NCBI GenBank assembly: GCA_026004935.1
Contig: BPKC01000001.1
Location: 2,119,381-2,183,380, forward strand
Direction: 5' to 3'
DNA: 64,000 nt
Origin: Rhodothalassiaceae bacterium
GTDB lineage: Bacteria > Pseudomonadota > Alphaproteobacteria > Sphingomonadales > Rhodothalassiaceae
The notes beneath the pieces were generated by a model. The model ran no database searches, was not told where the DNA came from, and saw only the letters and a list, made by a program, of their open reading frames with translations. The translations under genes and the position numbers were made by a program. Position 1 is the stretch's first letter. Each line of letters opens with the position of its first letter. Shown one piece after another: positions 18,198-58,076 of the stretch.

Positions 18198-18716
18198 TCA
18201 GGCGCTGCCTTCGGTCTCCAGCATGGCGGCCTCCAGCGCCTCGAGCGGCGCGCGGCCGTCATCGGCGACGAAGGAGAAGAAGGGATGGAAGCGCTCGACC
18301 TCCTCGAACGCGTTCTGGAGCAGGAGCGCCAGATGTTCGCCGCCGATCCCGTCCGCCGATTCCAGCGCCACCGCATGGCGGAAGATGAGGGCCGCCTCGT
18401 CGCTCCAGCACTCGAAATGGCCGAGCCACAGCCGCTCGTTGGCGAGCGCCAGCGCCTCGTAGATCGCCGGCAGGCGCTCGCGCGCGAGCCCCGTGTAGAA
18501 CAGACAGACGAGCTGCAGCACCCGCTCCTCCGGCCGCCACACGGCCTTCAGCTCCAGCTCGCCGTAGGCGCCGGGCACGCGCAGCGTCAGCTCGTCGTCG
18601 CCCGTCTGGGACGACGACCAGTCGTTGGCGAGCGCCAGCTCCTCGATCAGCTCCAGCGGATCGCCGCTCGTGCCCTCGATGTCCGCCGTCAGCAGTACCG
18701 TCATGTCCACCCGCAT
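18198..18716 (-). CDS. YbjN domain-containing protein
   Basis: About 172 residues of the alphaproteobacterial YbjN family: DPLELIEELALANDW, VPGAYGELELKAVWRPEERV, LALANERLWLGHFECWSDEA and EEVERFHPFFSFV occur in order. The fold resembles type III secretion chaperones. E. coli YbjN suppresses temperature-sensitive phenotypes, but the biochemical role is unknown. Two close starts, at 18716 (MRVDMTVLL) and 18704 (MTVLL), fit equally well. The 232 bases upstream of it contain nothing else I can name. Confidence 0.88.
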   Translation of the reverse strand: MRVDMTVLLTADIEGTSGDPLELIEELALANDWSSSQTGDDELTLRVPGAYGELELKAVWRPEERVLQLVCLFYTGLARERLPAIYEALALANERLWLGHFECWSDEAALIFRHAVALESADGIGGEHLALLLQNAFEEVERFHPFFSFVADDGRAPLEALEAAMLETEGSA

Positions 18717-18948
18717 CCGGTTGTCGTCGGTGCGCCGCCCGCCCGCCTCGCGCCGGCGCAGATACGGCGCCTTGCGCTTAGCCGATCGCAGCCGGCCCGT
18801 CGACTCGAATCTTGGCGGCGCCGGCCTTCGACGCACGCCGCGGGCCGCCGGCGGCCGACGCCCCGCGCAGGAGCGAGGCTGCCAAGGCCGCGGTACGAAA
18901 TCAAGCGGCATCGTGATCGAAGAACACAGGATCTGGGGCGCGCCCGCC

Positions 18949-20370
18949 TCAACTGCCGCCGGACGCGCGGCGGCCGGCCCCCTGCTCCTCCCAGGCCTGG
19001 AGCTTGCGGTAGAGGGTCGAGGGCGACACCTCGAGCAGGGCGGCCGCCCTGGGCACGCTGCCGTCGCAGGCGGCCAGCGCCATCTCGATCGCCTCCCGCT
19101 CCACCTGCCACAGCGGCTTGACCGCGCGCTCGGCGTCGCCATGTGCGGCCCCGCCCTCCCGGGCGCCGGCGGCGCGCGCGCGCACCGCCGGGCCCGCGGC
19201 GTGCCGCAGGCTGGCCGGCAGCATGTCCGGGGTGACCTCCTCGCCGGCGTGGAGCACCACGATCTGCTGGATCACGTTCTGGAGCTGGCGGACGTTTCCC
19301 GGCCAGTGGTAGCCGCGCAGGATCGCCCGGGCGTCGGGGGCGAAGTCCCGGAAGGCCTTGCCCTCCTCGCCGGCGAAGCGCGCAAGGAAGTGGCGCGCAA
19401 GCAACAGGATGTCATCGCCCCGCTCGCGCAGCGGCGGCATCTCGATCGGGATCACGTGCAGACGGTAGTAGAGATCCTCCCTCAGCCGCCCCTCCTCCAC
19501 CTCCTTCAGGGGATCGCGGTTGGTGGCCGCGACGAAGCGGACATCGACGCGCACCGGCTCGTCGCTGCCCACCGGCTGGACGACTCCCGTCTGGATGAAG
19601 CGCAGCAGCTTGCTCTGAAGCCTCGGATCCAGCTCGCACAGCTCGTCGAGGAAGAGCGTGCCGCCGTCGGCCTTGAGCGCGGCGCCCTCGCGGTGCTCGT
19701 GAGCGCCGGTGAACGCGCCCTTGCGGTGGCCGAACAGCTCGCTTTCCAGCAGATCCTTCGGAATCGCGGCGCAGTTCAGGGCGACGAAGGGCCGGTCGGC
19801 GCGCGGCGAGAGCCGATGGATCGCCTCGGCCGCGAGCTCCTTGCCTGTTCCCGATTCGCCGGTGATGAAGACGCTCGCCTTCGAGCGGGCGGCGCTCTCG
19901 ATGATGCGGTAGACCGCCTGCATCGGAAGCGACCGGCCGACGAGGCCGCAGAATCCCTCCTCGCGAAACCCCGACTCGTAGGAGCGCAGCTTGCGTTCGA
20001 GGTCCGATTTCTCGAGCGCGTTGCGCACGGTGGTGACGAGCCGCGTGTCGTCGAAGGGCTTGACGAGAAAATCCACGGCCCCCCGGCGCATCGCTTCCAC
20101 CGCCAGCTGCACCGAGCCGTGGGCCGTCATGACGACCACGGGCACGCCGCGCCGGGCGCGGGCAAGCTCGTCGAGCAGCGCCAGCCCCTCGCCGTCCGGC
20201 AGCTTCACGTCCAGCAGGACGAGCGCCGGCTCCGCGCGCGCGAGCAGGCGCCGCGCCTCGGCCAGCGTTTCCGCCGTCTCGATCGGCAGATCGAGGGCCG
20301 CGAGCGCCCCGCGGCAGGCCTCGGCCACCGTCTTGCTGTCCTCGACCACCAGGATGGGCGCCCTGCCCAT
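18949..20370 (-). CDS. Sigma-54-dependent response regulator, NtrC/LuxO type
   Basis: A 473-residue transcriptional activator. The receiver (1-120) has the phospho-acceptor Asp54 (VLLDVKLPDGEG), the MTAHGS Thr and the Lys of FLVKPFDD. The AAA+ domain has Walker A GESGTGKE at 171-178, the sigma-54 contact loop GAFTGA at 218-223, and Walker B GGTLFLDELCELD. The C-terminal Fis-type HTH is CDGSVPRAAALLEVSPSTLY. It would remodel sigma-54 RNA polymerase after phosphorylation. No histidine kinase is adjacent; the single CDS is followed by YbjN. Its targets are unknown. Confidence 0.95.
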   Translation of the reverse strand: MGRAPILVVEDSKTVAEACRGALAALDLPIETAETLAEARRLLARAEPALVLLDVKLPDGEGLALLDELARARRGVPVVVMTAHGSVQLAVEAMRRGAVDFLVKPFDDTRLVTTVRNALEKSDLERKLRSYESGFREEGFCGLVGRSLPMQAVYRIIESAARSKASVFITGESGTGKELAAEAIHRLSPRADRPFVALNCAAIPKDLLESELFGHRKGAFTGAHEHREGAALKADGGTLFLDELCELDPRLQSKLLRFIQTGVVQPVGSDEPVRVDVRFVAATNRDPLKEVEEGRLREDLYYRLHVIPIEMPPLRERGDDILLLARHFLARFAGEEGKAFRDFAPDARAILRGYHWPGNVRQLQNVIQQIVVLHAGEEVTPDMLPASLRHAAGPAVRARAAGAREGGAAHGDAERAVKPLWQVEREAIEMALAACDGSVPRAAALLEVSPSTLYRKLQAWEEQGAGRRASGGS

Positions 20371-51174: not shown

Positions 51175-51954
51175 TCAGGGCAGGAACTGCTCGAGGAAGA
51201 TCTTCTCGGCCAGATTGTGCTCGGGATCGAAGAGCAGCCTGACCGAAATGTCGCGGGCCAGCTCCACCTCCACGGCCTTCACGTCGCGCACCTCGTGGAA
51301 GTCGGCCGTGGCCGAGACCGGGCGCTTGCGGCTCTCGAGGATGGTGAAGCGGATCTGGCTCCTGTCCGCGATCAGCGCCCCGCGCCAGCGCCGCGGCCGG
51401 AAAGCGGAGATCGGCGTGAGCGCGAGCAGCGGCGTGCCCAGCGGAATGATCGGCCCGTTCGCGGACAGGTTGTAGGCGGTGCTGCCGGCGGGGGTCGCGA
51501 CGAGGATGCCGTCGCACAGCAGCTCGTTCATGCGCACCTTGCCGTCGATGGTGATCCGCAGCCGCGCGGTCTGACGCGTCTCGCGCAGCAGCGAGACCTC
51601 GTTGAAGGCGAGGTGCTCGCTGATGTGGCTGTCATCCGTGAAGGCGCGCATGCGCAGCGGGTGCAGCTCGACCTCCTCGGCGGCATCGAGGCGCTGAAGC
51701 AGATCCGCCTCGCGGTAGTCGTTCATGAGGAAGCCGACGGTGCCGCGGTTCATGCCGAAAATCGGCGTCGCCCGGCCGATCGAGCGGTGCAGCGTCTGCA
51801 GCATGAAGCCGTCGCCGCCGAGCGCCACCACCACCTCGGCCTCCTCGAGCGGGCAGTCGCCGTAGCGCCCGGCCAGCGCCTCGCGGGCGCGCGCCGCCTC
51901 GGGGCTGTCCGAGGCGATGAAGGCGATCCGCCTTTGTCGCGACGGGCGCTTCAT
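51175..51954 (-). CDS. nadK: NAD kinase
   Basis: Phosphorylates NAD+ to NADP+ using ATP or polyphosphate. From the ATG at 51954 ([20 protein letters not shown]) 259 residues include the GGDG motif (46-49, [12 protein letters not shown]), [17 protein letters not shown] with the conserved Asn-Glu, and [16 protein letters not shown]. The protein is monofunctional and cytoplasmic, convergent with dctM (11 bases) and divergent from the carbonic anhydrase gene. Confidence 0.95.
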
Positions 51955-52032
51955 GCTAGGGCGTCCTCCCGACGGCCGGGGCCCCGCGCCCCGGCGTTGC
52001 AGAGCGAAACGGCAGACAAGGGAGGCATCTGC

Positions 52033-52686
52033 ATGACAAATCCGACCCCGCCTGACAAGCGCCACCCGCTCATCGACGGCTATCGGCGCTGGTTCCGCGC
52101 GCAGCTGCCGCACGAGCGCCGCACGCGCGAGGTGCTCGCCCATGCGGGGCAGAAGCCCTTCGCCGTCGTCGTCGGCTGCGCAGACTCGCGGGCCGATCCC
52201 GGCGCGATCTTCGATGCCGGTCCCGGCGAGATCTTCGTCCTGCGCAATGTCGCGGCCCTCGTGCCGCCGCCTCACGCCGACGGTTTCCACCACGGCACCA
52301 GCGCCGGACTCGAGTTCGCGATCACCGCGCTCGGCGTGCCGCATCTGCTCATCCTCGGCCACACCGGCTGCGGCGGCGTGGCGGCGGCGCTCGATCGGCT
52401 GGACGAGCGCGACCGCGACGGGTTCATCGGCCCCTGGGTGGCGCTGCTCGCCGAAGCGCGTGCGCGCGTGGAGGCCCGGGAGGATCTTCAGCCCGACCAG
52501 CGCCAGCGCGCGCTCGAGGAGGAGGCGGTGCGCCTGTCGGTCGCCCGCGCCCGGGCCTTCCCCTTCGTGCAGGAGGCGGAGGCCGCCGGGCGGCTCACCG
52601 TCGACGGCGCCCTGTTCGACATCGGCTCCGGCGTCCTCCACTGGCTGGACCAGCGCGCGAACGCCTTCGTGCCGCTGGAGAAGTGA
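52033..52686 (+). CDS. Beta-class carbonic anhydrase
   Basis: Zinc enzyme interconverting CO2 and bicarbonate. The 217 residues contain the zinc ligands Cys49 ([11 protein letters not shown], with the Asp51/Arg53 dyad), His110 and Cys113 (ILGHTGCGG). The start at 52033 ([20 protein letters not shown]) follows GGAGG. C-terminal [20 protein letters not shown] is typical. It is cytoplasmic, supplying bicarbonate for carboxylations or pH control. It precedes the tRNA-Lys remnant by 26 bases. Confidence 0.95.
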
Positions 52687-52712
52687 GGAGGAAAAGCCGG
52701 GGACGGATGACC

Positions 52713-52788
52713 TGGTGAGCCCGGCAGGGATCGAACCTGCGACCTACTGATTAAAAGTCAGTCGCTCTACCAACTGAGCTACGGGCAT
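52713..52788 (-). tRNA. tRNA-Lys(TTT) copy with a disrupted acceptor stem (island boundary)
   Basis: A full cloverleaf with anticodon TTT (GACTTTTAATCAG region), TTCGATCC T-loop and genomic CCA, identical over about 74 bases to the copy at 54633-54708. Its 5' acceptor strand reads ATGCCCG instead of GAGCCCG, so the first two pairs with the 3' strand CGGGCTC are lost. It is probably a duplicate left by integration and may not be processed or charged well. Confidence 0.85.
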
Positions 52789-52986
52789 CGATCTGCCAAC
52801 CGAGCACGGACCCGCAAGTAAGCTCAACCAACGATCTGGAGCAAAGCCCGCGCAGAAAGATTTCGACAGCCTGAGTTTGCCCAGAAAGCGTCGTGTCCGA
52901 AACCTGTTTCAGGTATTGACTTTTTGCGCGTATTTCATAAGGTGGCAGGCGCGGAGGCATTCACTCTATATGGTGGAGGATTATCG

Positions 52987-53463
52987 ATGGGAAATCGGAT
53001 CTGCATAAACGCGCCGGCGGGAATCATCGAAATCGAAGGAGATGCGGAGTTTATCGAACACCATTTTGACAGACTAATGTCTCTTGTCGAATCTGCGCCT
53101 TTTGGCATACACCTTTCGCGACATCAGAGCGCGGGGGCTACTGCTTTTTCTGACCCCGGCGTCTCCCAGCAAACAGCTTCCGTTTCTTCAAAGCCTGAGG
53201 TCATGACGCAAAAACAAAAACGTCCCTCACGCAAGCGCCCTTCGAAAAATCAGACGGTGACGGCGCGCGTTGTCGACCTCCGGAAAGAAGGATTTTTCAA
53301 AACGCCAAGAGCAATCAATGAGGTGTACGATGAGCTTCAGAACAAGCGGGGGTTCAATTGCGCAAGAAACCAAATCACGGCAGCCCTTAAGAATCTGTAT
53401 GATAGAGGAGTTTTAAGTCGTAAAAAGGAAAACAAGCAGTTCGTTTATTATACCAATGAGTAA
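52987..53463 (+). CDS. Island gene A: hypothetical protein with HTH-like C-terminal half
   Basis: 158 residues from the ATG at 52987, which follows GGAGGA; an upstream TTG frame from 52924 is rejected. The N-terminal part (ICINAPAGIIEIEGDAEFIE, then HHFDRLMSLVE) looks like a small beta/alpha oligomerisation domain. A Lys/Arg/Gln-rich linker (TQKQKRPSRKRPSKNQTV) follows. The end (KTPRAINEVYDELQNKRGFN, NQITAALKNLYDRGVLSRKK) has the pattern of a winged helix. I recognise no named family. It pairs with gene B in the same direction, with similar foreign composition, suggesting a two-gene functional unit. Confidence 0.75.
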   Translation: MGNRICINAPAGIIEIEGDAEFIEHHFDRLMSLVESAPFGIHLSRHQSAGATAFSDPGVSQQTASVSSKPEVMTQKQKRPSRKRPSKNQTVTARVVDLRKEGFFKTPRAINEVYDELQNKRGFNCARNQITAALKNLYDRGVLSRKKENKQFVYYTNE

Positions 53464-53800
53464 ATACCATGACATGAAAGAGTGAAAAGCATTTTTAACC
53501 TGTTTTAACAATCGAATCGTCGACTTTATATTTAGTATACATAAATTCTATTACTCTGTTGCTCACTTTCTTTCATGGTTACTGATGTTGTCGTCAGCAA
53601 CAAGCTCGAGCAGCGTGTTCGAATTCCATAAAAATTGTGATAACGACGCAATGCCTTGTGGAAGAGTCGTTCCTGTTTTCCGTTTAGATTCCTTCGATTA
53701 TGTATTCTCGACCCGATTCGGAAGAAAGACATAAGATGACGATTACAACCGGTGCTAGACTCCGCGGATTGTTATACGACGCATTCTTGGGAGATAATTC

Positions 53801-54547
53801 ATGCAAAAAGATGACCTTATTAACGCACTGGCCTCCGCATTGGATATTAGTTTGGCAACTCAAATTGTCTCCCACTTTTTAGAGTTGAAGAAAGATGTTA
53901 TTTCTCGGCGTAAAAATAGCACATCCATAGGAAAATTCACGGAAACGTTTGTCCAATGCCATCAGTATCTTGCTACTGGGAATTATGACACTATGCCCAA
54001 TGTTGATAGGTACCTATGCCAGCAGGCTGAAAATCAGGGGAGACTGCCCGATGGATTGCGAATTTGCGCGCCGCGGGTTGCGCGCGTGATCTATACCTTC
54101 CGTAATAAAAGAAATATCGCTCATATTAGTGACTTGGACCAAAACGTTTATGATATAGAAACCGCATATCATTGCGCGGTGTGGATAATGTCCGAGATGC
54201 TAAGAGAATTGCATCAGATTCCTATGGATAAGGCTGCGCTTCTTATAAAATCAGTCCAAGAATCTGTTAGTCACGTTGTCGAGATCATCGATGGTAGTTA
54301 CATAGTTCACGGCGGCACATCGATCCCAGAGAAGATAATATTGCTGCTGTCGCACGTTCCAGATGGTTTAGATCGAGAAACAATTTGGCAAGCGGTGAAA
54401 ACCGCAAAGAAAGAAACCGTCTACAGGTCACTTAGAAGATTGGAGAATCAAATATTGGTTCATCTGACAACAACGCGTCAATATGTTCTGACGACGGGGG
54501 GACAGAGACGTGCTCGCGACATTATCGCAAAGATTGCTGAGACGTGA
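53801..54547 (+). CDS. Island gene B: all-helical protein with HEPN-like and winged-helix parts
   Basis: 248 residues, ATG at 53801 after GGGAG. Residues about 1-150 are helical and contain PRVARVIYTFRNKRNIAHIS, a motif recalling the R-x4-6-H of HEPN/RNase-type domains. The last 90 residues (IPEKIILLLSHVPDGLDRET, then VYRSLRRLENQILVHLTTTR) look like a winged helix. I associate similar proteins with defence-type gene pairs, but no published system can be named from sequence alone. Function could be RNA cleavage regulated by gene A; this is speculation. Confidence 0.72.
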   Translation: MQKDDLINALASALDISLATQIVSHFLELKKDVISRRKNSTSIGKFTETFVQCHQYLATGNYDTMPNVDRYLCQQAENQGRLPDGLRICAPRVARVIYTFRNKRNIAHISDLDQNVYDIETAYHCAVWIMSEMLRELHQIPMDKAALLIKSVQESVSHVVEIIDGSYIVHGGTSIPEKIILLLSHVPDGLDRETIWQAVKTAKKETVYRSLRRLENQILVHLTTTRQYVLTTGGQRRARDIIAKIAET

Positions 54548-54632
54548 TGCTCTTGATTAAGCGTCCGCGTCAATAGCATCAATAGCAAACGTTGCATACG
54601 TTGATAGCATAGCCGAAACTGCTCAATTCGTG

Positions 54633-54708
54633 TGGTGAGCCCGGCAGGGATCGAACCTGCGACCTACTGATTAAAAGTCAGTCGCTCTACCAACTGAGCT
54701 ACGGGCTC
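54633..54708 (-). tRNA. tRNA-Lys(TTT)
   Basis: Complete cloverleaf on the minus strand: acceptor GAGCCCG pairs fully with CGGGCTC, D-arm AGCTCAGTTGGTAGAGC, anticodon TTT in GACTTTTAATC, T-arm GCAGGTTCGATCCCTGC and encoded CCA. It decodes AAA/AAG. This is the structurally intact member of the duplicated pair bordering the island. Confidence 0.97.
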
Positions 54709-54814
54709 GGCATGTCGTGCGCACGGGCGATGGACCCGGAGGCGGGAGACCGCGTCCGCCGCGGTCGCCGCGGCCGCACGCGCGGCGGCGCACCTTATGT
54801 CCGCGGCCCCGCGC

Positions 54815-55345
54815 GGTCAAGCCGGCGGGTGGCGCGGGAAGGAATGGACCCGCCGGTCAAGCCACCGGTGACGAGGAGAGGGAGCTGGCGGGTGATGCTT
54901 TCCTTTCCTCGTCATTCGCCGCGAAAGCGGCGAATCCAGCCGCTGCCGCGGACGATCCCGGCGCTTGTGGCCGTCCCCGCTTCCCGCTGGACCCGCCGGT
55001 CGAGCCGGCGGGTGACGATTGGGGATGCGCAACGGCGGGTGACCCCCTCCACCACGTCGTTCGCCGGCCTGACCGGCGAACCCAGCCAACGGAGACGCCA
55101 GCCCCAGCGCTGGTGATTGGCATCGCTTCCGGCTGGACCCGCCGGTCGAGCCGGCGGGTGACGATTGGGGATGCGCAACGGCGGGTGACCCCCTCCACCA
55201 CGTCGTTCGCCGACTTGATCGGCGAACCCAGCGAACGGAGACGCCAGCCCCAGCGCTGGTGATGGGCATCGCTTCCGGCTGGACCCGCCGGTCGAGCCGG
55301 CGGGTGACGGGAAAAGGAGATGGACCCGCCGATCAGATCGGCGCA
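54815..55345. repeat. Hairpin repeat array next to tRNA-Lys
   Basis: About half a kilobase of non-coding DNA with at least seven hairpins: CCCGCCGG-type with TCGAG or TCAAG loops (near 54990, 55140 and 55285), TTCGCCGG- and TTCGCCGA-types (near 55062 and 55205) and ATTCGCCGC/GCGGCGAAT (near 54915). A segment of about 140-150 bp containing ATTGGGGATGCGCAACGG occurs twice. ORFs across it are repeat translations. From about 55350 to the XRE gene stop at 55570 I see nothing. Confidence 0.82.
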
Positions 55346-55569
55346 CGAGGCGGGAGGGGAGCCTCACCCCCGCCGCAGCCAGTCCAGCCGGCGGGTCCGG
55401 CGCGCCAGCCGCCGGCAGCGGCCGCAAGCGGCATTGTAGTGAATGGTGATGGCGGCCATGTCCGTCTCCCCCGCTCGTCACCCGCCCTTCCCCGAAGGAG
55501 CCTTGCATGCACCTGCGCGCGCGCACAAGGGCCCGCCGCCCGCGCCCCGCCGCAACCGGCGGCGCGGCG

Positions 55570-56151
55570 CTATTCCACGAGGCGGATGACGGCCTCGAGC
55601 GGGGCGAGCCGCACGAGCCGCCGGTCCCGCCAGACCGGTGCGCGCGGGCCCGGGGCGGCGATCACCGCGCGGCCGTCCCCGTCCAGCGCCGCCAGCTTGC
55701 CGAAATAGCAGAACCCCTCCTCCTCTTCGGCGAAGACCTCGCGGCCCACGGCGCGGGGCCAGTCCGCGCGGGCGAGCGCGCGGCACAGCAGCACGTCGCC
55801 GGCACGGTAGGCCCCCAGGTTCTCCTCGACCTTCAGCGCGACGGCATCGCGGCTGAGCTCGCGCAGCGCCACCGTCTCCATGAGCCGCCCGCCGCGGTCG
55901 ACCCGTCCGTGCAGCGCCACCGTGCCCGTGATCGCGACATCGCCCGCCCCCGGCACCGCGAGCAGCTCGGCCGGGTCCACCTCCAGGGCCTCGGCGATCT
56001 TTTCCAGCCAGTCGATGGTGAGCTTGCGCGCGCCCGTCTCCAGCCGGCCGATGGTCTGGGGCGTCGTGCCGCGGGGCCTGACCCGCTCGGCAACCTGCTG
56101 AAGGGTCAGCCCCTTGCGCTTGCGGACCTCGCGCAGTCTCGCGTGCAGCAT
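55570..56151 (-). CDS. XRE-family repressor with degenerate S24-like C-terminal domain
   Basis: 193 residues. The N-terminal Cro/CI-type HTH is LREVRKRKGLTLQQVAERVR followed by TTPQTIGRLETGARKLTIDW. The C-terminal half (ALKVEENLGAYRAGDVLLC) has the S24 fold pattern but lacks the Ser of the usual GDSM, so it is probably not self-cleaving. It is divergent from the DUF6456 gene across 180 bases holding candidate operators. By analogy with the Caulobacter RogA repressor, which controls gafYZ, it may repress gene transfer agent expression; that is inference from position and domains. Confidence 0.85.
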   Translation of the reverse strand: MLHARLREVRKRKGLTLQQVAERVRPRGTTPQTIGRLETGARKLTIDWLEKIAEALEVDPAELLAVPGAGDVAITGTVALHGRVDRGGRLMETVALRELSRDAVALKVEENLGAYRAGDVLLCRALARADWPRAVGREVFAEEEEGFCYFGKLAALDGDGRAVIAAPGPRAPVWRDRRLVRLAPLEAVIRLVE

Positions 56152-56299
56152 GTCGTCCTCCCGCCGTCGGCCGGCCCGCGATCGCCGGTGCGTCCACTCG
56201 CGGCCGCGCGCCTTCCGCCCCCGCGCCCCCGCAACCTGCGTTTATAACCATACAGTCACATGCGCAAGGGGGCTTTACCGATGAGGAACACGCTGGTAT

Positions 56300-56316
56300 A
56301 ACCAATCCGGCACAAT
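56300..56316 (+). promoter_or_regulatory. Candidate shared regulatory element (DUF6456/XRE intergenic copy)
   Basis: AACCAATCCGGCACAAT lies 16 bases before the DUF6456 ATG, in the divergent gap with the XRE repressor gene. It matches the elements at 58077-58093 and 22676-22692 at 12 of 16 positions (core ACCA, four bases, GGCACA). Just upstream a TGGT/ACCA dyad overlaps it. A binding site for the adjacent repressor is a reasonable guess. Confidence 0.45.
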
Positions 56317-56331
56317 GTTCGGGAGCAAGGA

Positions 56332-57135
56332 ATGCAAACGGTTCTTTCCTCCTATGCCGAGGAGGTGCTGCGCCGTCTCGTCGCCTGCGGCGGGGCGCCG
56401 GTGGACGCCGACGGGCGGGTGATGCTGGCGGGCAGGGCGGTGCCGGCGCGCGTCGTGGCGGCGCTCACCAGGGCGGACTTTCTGCGGCTGGAAGGCGGGC
56501 GGGCGCGGCCGACGGCGGCCGGCGTCTTCCATCTCAGGCGGCGCGCGGCAGCCGCCTTTTCGCGGCCGGACGGGCGGCAGCCGGGTGCGGGCGAGCCGCT
56601 CTCGCCCTTCCGCCACCAGCATCTGCTGCCGCGCCGCCCGTCCGGCGCCGGACGCCGGCCCGTCCCCCTCCTCAGCAGCGCCGAATCGCCGCTCCAGCGT
56701 CTCGCCCGCCTGAAGGACCGGCGCGGGCGGCCGTGGTTTCCGCCGGCGCTGATCGCCGCGGGCGAACGCCTGCGCACCGATTTCGAGCTCGCCGGTCTGC
56801 GCCCGCGCACGACCATCCGCTACGAACCCATCGGGCCCGACCGCGCGCGCGGGCGCTGGCGCGAGATGACGCCGGGCGAGCGCATGCTGGACGCCCGCCA
56901 GCGCTTCCACGAGGCGCTCGATGCCGTCGGCCCCGGCCTGCGCGACGTGCTGATCGCGGTCTGCTGCCATCTCGAGGGGCTGGAGGAGATCGAGCGCCGG
57001 CTCGACTGGCCCCAGCGCGCGGGCAAGCTGGTGCTGCGCATCGCGCTCGAGCGGCTTGCCGCCCACTACGACCGCCGCACCCCGTCCGCGCCGCCCGCAT
57101 CCGCCGAAGCCGGGCCCGCCCGCCTGCGGGGGTGA
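56332..57135 (+). CDS. DUF6456 domain protein, GafA/GafZ-like gene transfer agent activator candidate
   Basis: 267 residues, ATG at 56332 after AAGGA. The N-terminal third (MQTVLSSYAEEVLRRLVACG, LTRADFLRLEGGRARPTAAG) looks like a winged helix. Residues about 115-250 form the DUF6456 domain: SPLQRLARLKDRRGRPWFPP, AAGERLRTDFELAGLRPRTT, DVLIAVCCHLEGLEEIERRL and RAGKLVLRIALERLAAHYD. DUF6456 is the C-terminal domain of GafA, the activator of the Rhodobacter GTA, which is split as GafY/GafZ in Caulobacter. Position next to a repressor and about 1.2 kb from packaging genes supports this role. Confidence 0.8.
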   Translation: MQTVLSSYAEEVLRRLVACGGAPVDADGRVMLAGRAVPARVVAALTRADFLRLEGGRARPTAAGVFHLRRRAAAAFSRPDGRQPGAGEPLSPFRHQHLLPRRPSGAGRRPVPLLSSAESPLQRLARLKDRRGRPWFPPALIAAGERLRTDFELAGLRPRTTIRYEPIGPDRARGRWREMTPGERMLDARQRFHEALDAVGPGLRDVLIAVCCHLEGLEEIERRLDWPQRAGKLVLRIALERLAAHYDRRTPSAPPASAEAGPARLRG

Positions 57136-57221
57136 CCGCGCTGCGGCCGGCAGTGCACGGGCCGGCGGTGGTAGTGCACGGGCCGGCGGCGGCAGTGATC
57201 CGGCCCGCCGTCACCCTCTCT

Positions 57222-57965
57222 TCGTCACCCGCCGGCTTGACCGGCGGGTCCAATCCCTCACCTCGTCATCCGCCGACTTGATCGGCAGGTCCTTCCCCCT
57301 TTTCTCGTCATCCGCCGACTTGATCGGCAGGGCCTTCCCCCCTTTTCTCGTCATCCGCCGACTTGATCGGCGGATCCAGCCGCCAGCGGGGCCGATCTCC
57401 TGAGCCGGGTGCCGTCACCGCCCGATGGGTTCGCCGGTCAAGCCGGCGAACGACGCGAATGGGGGGAGCGTCATCCGCTGTCCGCCATTCCCATCGTCAC
57501 CCGCCGGCACCGGGGACGTTACCCCGCTGTGCGCACCCCCCCAATCGTCACCCGCCGACTTGATCGGCGGGTCCAGCCGGCGGCGGACACGACGACGAGT
57601 GCCGGGGCTGCCGTCACCGCCCGATGGGTTCGCCGGTCAAGCCGGCGAACGACGCGAATGGGGGGAGCGTCATCCGCTGTCCGCCATTCCCATCGTCACC
57701 CGCCGGCACCGGGGACGTTACCCCGCTGTGCGCACCCCCCCAATCGTCACCCGCCGACTTGATCGGCGGGTCCAGCCGGCGGCGGACACGACGACGAGTG
57801 CCGGGGCTGCCGTCACCGCCCGATGGGTTCGCCGGTCAAGCCGGCGAACGACGATTCAGGGATCGGTCGTCGGTCATCAGTCATCAGCACACCTGCACGA
57901 CGCCCGTCACCCGCCGGCCCCATCTTCTCGTCACCCGCCGGCTTGACCGGCGGGTCCAGTCGCCA
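57222..57965. repeat. Hairpin repeat array with two copies of a 199-bp unit
   Basis: Non-coding stretch between the DUF6456 gene and the terminase promoter. Hairpins CCCGCCGG-, ATCCGCCGA-, CCGCCGA- and TTCGCCGG-type alternate. A 199-bp unit (from about 57425) repeats almost perfectly at 57624. Heptamers (CGGTCGT, CGGTCAT, CAGTCAT) are at about 57858. From 57970 to 58076 I see nothing recognisable. Confidence 0.85.
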
Positions 57966-58076
57966 GCGGGGCGACCTCGACCATCGGGAGTTCCCGCACC
58001 TCCCGGTCGGGTTCAGCGGGCGGCGGGGCCGGCCGCGCGGGCAGGTCATGCGACGACCGGCGGACAGGCCGGACAT

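Follow-up and report, generated by a model that had tools for sequence, protein, structure and literature searches.

The AT-rich DNA enclosed by two copies of a tRNA-Lys(TTT) gene in this genome is probably a minimal element without an integrase, a CIME-like remnant seated at tRNA-Lys(TTT) and carrying a two-gene conflict cassette. The island itself is of a known kind, and its cargo is a two-gene family that has no name. Insertion is supported by a 74-bp direct repeat with one broken end, the 45% GC of the insert and the single tRNA in relatives, and further by another island at tRNA-Lys(TTT) in a member of the same family and by sister modules in tRNA islands. The reading of the cargo as a conflict cassette draws on a conserved operon, a gene tree that does not follow taxonomy, low GC, a HEPN motif and a profile match to Abi_C. 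Throughout, the window is the whole stretch of 64,000 nucleotides that was analysed.

The insert and its tRNA boundaries

ARAGORN places tRNA-Lys(TTT) genes on the minus strand at 52713-52788 and 54633-54708, in direct orientation and 1,920 bases apart from start to start. The copies share 74 of 76 bases, all those from tRNA position 3 through the CCA end (a 74-bp direct repeat at 52713..52786 and 54633..54706), and the sole mismatch falls on tRNA positions 1-2, which read GA on the right and AT on the left. The acceptor stem of the right copy (GAGCCCG/CGGGCTC) pairs completely, whereas the AT of the left copy leaves acceptor positions 1 and 2 unpaired against the 3' arm; the Rfam scores are 78.6 and 65.9 bits, respectively. 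The right copy, which has the native 5' end and upstream side, is the intact gene and the reconstituted junction of the insertion. The left copy is displaced, lies against the host 3' flank and is likely a non-functional far junction. The duplication of tRNA-Lys described in the initial annotation thus stands, but the two copies are not equivalent. No third tRNA-Lys(TTT) was found in the genome search, the only other tRNA-Lys seen being CTT.

The insert (52789..54632; 1,844 bp) is foreign in composition, with a GC content of 45.1% compared to 70.4% and 72.3% in the 10 kb to its left and right, and is the most AT-rich 1.84-kb stretch of the whole window. Its AT-rich DNA occupies the entire space from tRNA to tRNA and holds two full-length open reading frames on the plus strand, gene 1 (52987-53463) and gene 2 (53801-54547), separated by an intergenic gap of 337 bp and 39% GC (53464..53800) that contains promoter-like matches at 53505 and 53769, about as many as chance would give. 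An integrase is absent between the two tRNA-Lys copies, no ICE, IME or integrase relic was seen in the insert, and Rfam identified no regulatory RNA there apart from the tRNAs. The arrangement given in the initial annotation, two tRNA-Lys copies around AT-rich two-gene DNA with GC-rich flanks and no integrase, is therefore borne out by ARAGORN, GC content and reading frames, and with it the description of a cargo-only or decayed element.

The integration site in related genomes

All six genomes of the same family compared for tRNA-Lys and gene 2 (one of the same genus, and two of the six incomplete drafts) possess one intact tRNA-Lys(TTT) and are without gene 2. A single intact copy in every relative makes an ancient tandem array unlikely at such depth. 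The initial annotation had proposed that the duplication arose by insertion at the tRNA, and named relatives that all carry both copies and both genes as the case against it; this is the state of none of the six. It had also suggested looking for other cargo at the same tRNA, and one such island was found. In a member of the family (G003), a 7.1-kb island at tRNA-Lys(TTT) (L041:5114-12375) ends on its far side in a 46-bp repeat of the 3' part of the tRNA, and encodes a large terminase, a portal protein, two Fic-domain proteins and, adjoining the tRNA, a C-terminal tyrosine-recombinase fragment. It is a prophage or satellite remnant with a truncated integrase, and indicates that this tRNA is an integration site in use within the family.

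The usual att core measures 30-45 bp (PMC10865867). The 46-bp repeat of the G003 island fits the usual tRNA att pattern, and the longer 74-bp repeat of the window stands out; a repeat of this length would be accounted for either by an element carrying nearly the whole tRNA or by a circle that had picked up the tRNA and integrated by homologous recombination. Both window copies have a G within GAGCAACTGAC where the six relatives have an A, and this shared lineage-specific base implies that the duplicated sequence came from the lineage itself or its near kin, or that the copies were homogenised.

The blocks on either side of the island, NADK-Can on the left and XRE-DUF6456 on the right, are each conserved in the relatives, but at separate places, and the tRNA-Lys of the relatives adjoins neither. 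Gene order around tRNA-Lys differs in every relative, and a true empty site could not be recognised in the genus and family comparison, there being no relative in which either flank keeps its synteny with tRNA-Lys. At 51175-57135 of the window, the tRNA-Lys lies between two blocks that are separate in all relatives examined, such that a rearrangement breakpoint coincides with the island. Palindromic units resembling GACCCGCCGGTCGAGCCGGCGGGTGAC are repeated in the intergenic DNA of the right flank (window about 54840-55340 and 57200-58000), and form a dispersed repeat family that could promote rearrangement.

Three proteins of the host genome match PF00589, of which one is a P4-type integrase beside tRNA-Leu and the other two are read as Xer-like; no integrase for tRNA-Lys was recognised among these matches. 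The P4-type integrase (L112; G000:C1, about 18350-20150; Arm-DNA-bind_3 and Phage_integrase domains) directly follows tRNA-Leu(CAG) and is itself followed by lower-GC DNA, a region that is probably a second tRNA-integrated island of the host genome.

Predicted functions of the two proteins

Gene 2 (53801..54547, plus strand; 248 aa) is predicted to consist of an N-terminal all-helical HEPN domain, similar to Abi_C, and a C-terminal winged helix. In an alignment of 42 homologues, ten residues are invariant (E48, P91, R92, R104, H108, D118, W128, E132, R135 and G234) and R52, R101 and K103 are conserved in at least 90%, with the window protein having Q52 where those homologues carry R. The published HEPN signatures are Rx4-6H with a polar residue after the R, and a second motif, E-x3-[KR] (PMC3710099). 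Conservation in the 42 homologues and these rules together point to a catalytic motif at R101-N-K-R-N-I-A-H108 (54101..54124, plus strand), an Rx6H with N after the R, and the E48-x3-R52 of the family corresponds to the second signature. Using hhalign, the profile of the N-terminal half matched an Abi_C-seeded alignment, which had been extended iteratively and also contained a few proteins recovered through DUF4145, a further HEPN family, with an E-value of 2.4e-4 and a score of 33.5 over 103 columns with the motifs aligned; the best of 100 column shuffles scored 18.9 and the reversed profile 12.9. None of the 42 members exceeded the Pfam gathering score for Abi_C (PF14355), and DUF4145, tried as a HEPN relative, gave no usable profile match. 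The AlphaFold2 model (pLDDT 91) has an all-helical N-terminal domain and a winged helix at the C-terminus; Foldseek searches of the PDB and viral models matched the winged helix only, and the HEPN part was without a match. Collectively, the N-terminal domain is likely HEPN, and the protein may be an RNA-cutting toxin, a putative RNase.

For gene 1 (52987..53463, plus strand; 158 aa), HMM matches and the AlphaFold2 model indicate a strand-strand-helix at the N-terminus, then a disordered linker and, at the C-terminus, a winged helix; its match to PF03965 is weak. Two kinds of partner protein occur in the family: the N-terminus carries an (I/E)SGSE-FV element in type A and an FKSEAVQL helix in type B, and both have the winged helix at the C-terminal end. 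In HMM comparisons, gene 1 matched the type-B C-terminus with 39.3 bits (E-value 2.5e-11; best of 2,000 shuffles, 7.7) and the type-A N-terminus with 13.8 bits (E-value 0.002; best of 2,000 shuffles, 5.6). By these profile matches, the window protein joins a type-A-like N-terminus to a type-B C-terminus. Judged from its domains, gene 1 most likely keeps gene 2 inactive and represses the locus.

Distribution of the family

A search of close proteins returned no relative of gene 2, and whole-genome searches identified two relatives, 25-26% identical to it and both immediately preceded by a small winged-helix gene. A profile built from these two relatives recovered 41 loci in named genomes, which span at least eleven phyla (Proteobacteria, Bacteroidota, Chloroflexota and a candidate phylum among them), as well as one viral contig that holds the pair; gene 2 itself was without a match in plasmids and phages. 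A protein of the gene 1 type is upstream of gene 2 in about 40 of the 44 loci with upstream sequence, and the two genes nearly always overlap. The layout of type II toxin-antitoxin systems (two small, co-directional, overlapping genes, one of them DNA-binding) is accordingly that of nearly all family members, and the 337-bp gap before gene 2, where other members overlap or nearly touch, makes the window the exception and is its one clear departure from the gene order of the family. In many phyla the module is isolated among genes of ordinary kind, and in 39 of 40 loci it is lower in GC than its surroundings. The tree of gene 2 mixes phyla and does not track host taxonomy; the window protein shares a long branch with two variants from the Alphaproteobacteria, its exact place being unsure.

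No full-length family for either protein was present in Pfam, NCBIfam, PADLOC, PHROGs or PDB sequences, where matches were weak or confined to the winged helix. In PADLOC specifically, the window protein and a small number of family members matched defence models weakly and over a winged-helix-sized part, and no paper describing the pair was found. Among 137 genes neighbouring the homologues, a count made without a control set, there were a few matches to type I methyltransferase, PDC-S19, PDC-S68 and IetA, which were given no weight as evidence.

Several loci depart from the two-gene form. In three from the Alphaproteobacteria (L061, L062 and L063), gene 2 is preceded by two or three small genes, most of them of the winged-helix kind, and altered forms of the catalytic motif occur (RSKRDVVH and ASNRGGRH). 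In one locus from the Ignavibacteriales (L074:1266-3680), the module is preceded by a class III nucleotide cyclase (PF00211) and a small protein of similar size, an arrangement that is a possible signalling variant.

Sister modules in tRNA islands

Three further modules were located at tRNA genes. The 5.8-kb island of Marinobacter sp. F3R08 runs from tRNA-Leu and an integrase through RNase H-like and resolvase genes to the module and a 27-bp partial tRNA repeat. In Pseudomonas sp. 30_B, the module lies between a degenerate copy of tRNA-Met (85% over 74 columns) and an intact tRNA-Met 3.5 kb further, with no integrase seen in the island. The module of Paralcaligenes ureilyticus adjoins tRNA-Met together with the fragment EVARITGHKSLVMLNRYTHLD, taken from its sequence as a probable tyrosine-recombinase C-terminus. 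The module thus occurs in tRNA islands that have an integrase, a broken one or none, the range to be expected were the window island a reduced form. Most loci are without a tRNA within the 8 kb examined, and thus tRNA islands are one of several homes of the module.

Discussion

The course of events that would lead to the present island begins with an integrative element, or a circle, whose attachment site was a nearly complete tRNA-Lys and which recombined with the resident gene, rebuilding a working tRNA at the right junction and retaining the displaced copy at the left. The recombination genes would then have been lost, or would have been provided by another element; we infer entry mediated by an integrase and subsequent loss of that enzyme. 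The remaining cargo would be an RNase-like HEPN toxin that ends in a winged helix, together with its winged-helix partner, and the conflict type of cargo foreseen in the initial annotation agrees with the predicted domains. Gene 1 would bind and repress, and invasion or loss of the element would release gene 2 to cut RNA. Neutralisation by gene 1 and a role in defence or addiction, as in toxin-antitoxin or abortive infection systems, may be proposed on the same grounds. Under the CIME model (PMC7563491), movement of the element would now depend on a related element that either integrates next to it or provides the enzyme.

Insertion is weakened by the lack of an observed empty site, the length of the 74-bp repeat and the lineage-specific G present in both copies. 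The last two observations, a repeat covering approximately the whole tRNA with a lineage-specific base in each copy, would also result from a tandem duplication of the tRNA in this lineage by unequal recombination or rearrangement, with the AT-rich genes entering the spacer later by another route. Such an origin would accord with the synteny breakpoint at the locus and with the tandem tRNA-Lys copies 229 bp apart in a genome of the same order (G010), but the 74-bp identity stops precisely at the CCA end on one side and at tRNA position 3 on the other, leaving the promoter side and 3' flank unduplicated, and AT-rich DNA fills the spacer from tRNA to tRNA. As the G003 island is a true integration at tRNA-Lys and sister modules sit at the att sites of other tRNAs, a tandem duplication is unlikely. 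It is similarly improbable that the cassette is a cargo-only element still mobile in trans through a helper integrase with tRNA-Lys specificity, one of the two options given in the initial annotation. A direct repeat still marks both ends, the genes appear undamaged (full-length reading frames, the conserved motif and a pLDDT of 91) and the Pseudomonas tRNA-Met island likewise has no integrase; against this, the only clear tRNA-type integrase of the genome is the P4-type enzyme beside tRNA-Leu, and an identical cassette was not found in another genome.

The reading of the cargo is in turn weakened by Q52, by Foldseek matches to the winged helix only, by the few defence neighbours and by the 337-bp gap. 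In another reading, the genes would be a transcription-regulatory pair left over from the control functions of some larger element rather than a toxin-antitoxin or defence pair, with the HEPN-like domain serving as a non-catalytic protein-interaction domain. The winged helices in both proteins, the extra winged-helix genes of some variants, the module beside a class III cyclase and the divergent homologue without the first R of the motif (L063) lend this some credence. It is nevertheless rather doubtful, as the 42 divergent proteins all retain R104, H108 and E48, beyond the need of a scaffold, and the operon occurs alone among ordinary genes in many phyla in the manner of toxin-antitoxin and defence modules. 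Returning to the conflict cassette, it is quite possible, if a little short of an even chance, that the two genes represent an undescribed and widely transferred HEPN/winged-helix conflict system that is repeatedly found in short tRNA-bounded islands with or without an integrase, the window holding its smallest form.

Among known elements, the island most resembles the CIMEs, short integrated elements with att repeats and no recombination genes, classically 1.2-13 kb with cargo; one study reported 215 in Streptococcus agalactiae, located at the 3' end of a tRNA-Lys gene (PMC7563491). The window element likewise has att-type direct repeats (74 bp, in tRNA-Lys) and no recombination or conjugation genes. 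However, CIMEs are described as decayed ICEs or IMEs of Firmicutes and in that study were detected in tandem with a helper, and the window element, with its 74-bp repeat, is in an alphaproteobacterium and has no tandem helper. With tRNA-integrated prophages and satellites, such as the G003 island and P4-type elements, it shares the target gene, a direct repeat of the 3' part of the tRNA and an intact tRNA rebuilt at one junction; it differs from the G003 island in having no phage genes or integrase fragment, and in its repeat, which measures 46 bp in G003.

The putative toxin resembles the HEPN toxins of the Abi_C/AbiJ group in its helical domain, the Rx6H motif with N after the R, E-x3-[KR] and the profile match. 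Abi_C is C-terminal in AbiJ-like proteins, whereas the HEPN domain of gene 2 is N-terminal and followed by a winged helix, with a winged-helix partner encoded beside it, and the gene 2 family does not match Pfam Abi_C at threshold. HEPN-MNT toxin-antitoxin systems also consist of two small genes for a HEPN toxin and a partner, but the partner here is a winged-helix protein and not a nucleotidyltransferase, and the HEPN subfamily is different.

Islands bounded by tRNA genes and devoid of an integrase are easily overlooked by searches based on integrases, and this one led to a conserved two-gene module without a name in Pfam, NCBIfam, PADLOC or PHROGs. Should gene 2 be a HEPN RNase held by gene 1, the module would be a new toxin-antitoxin or abortive-infection family with clear catalytic residues. 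The family alignment can be used by others to find the module.

Additional forms of the module and its neighbourhood were apparent at individual loci. In one (L087:7299-8840; 44% GC in a 64% GC host), the two genes stand alone between repeats of ~45 bp that resemble REP elements, which is another minimal cassette form. A relative (G089) of one module-bearing genome (G033) was considered as an empty site for that module and rejected, as it has a different AT-rich gene, methyltransferase-like by reading of its sequence, between the same flanking genes (L186:698-1462) and no tRNA; the site is one of variable cargo. Lastly, the Pseudomonas tRNA-Met island also encodes a 168-aa protein with an RAKRNAFIH motif and no Pfam match (L071:9335-9841), which could be a further HEPN protein.
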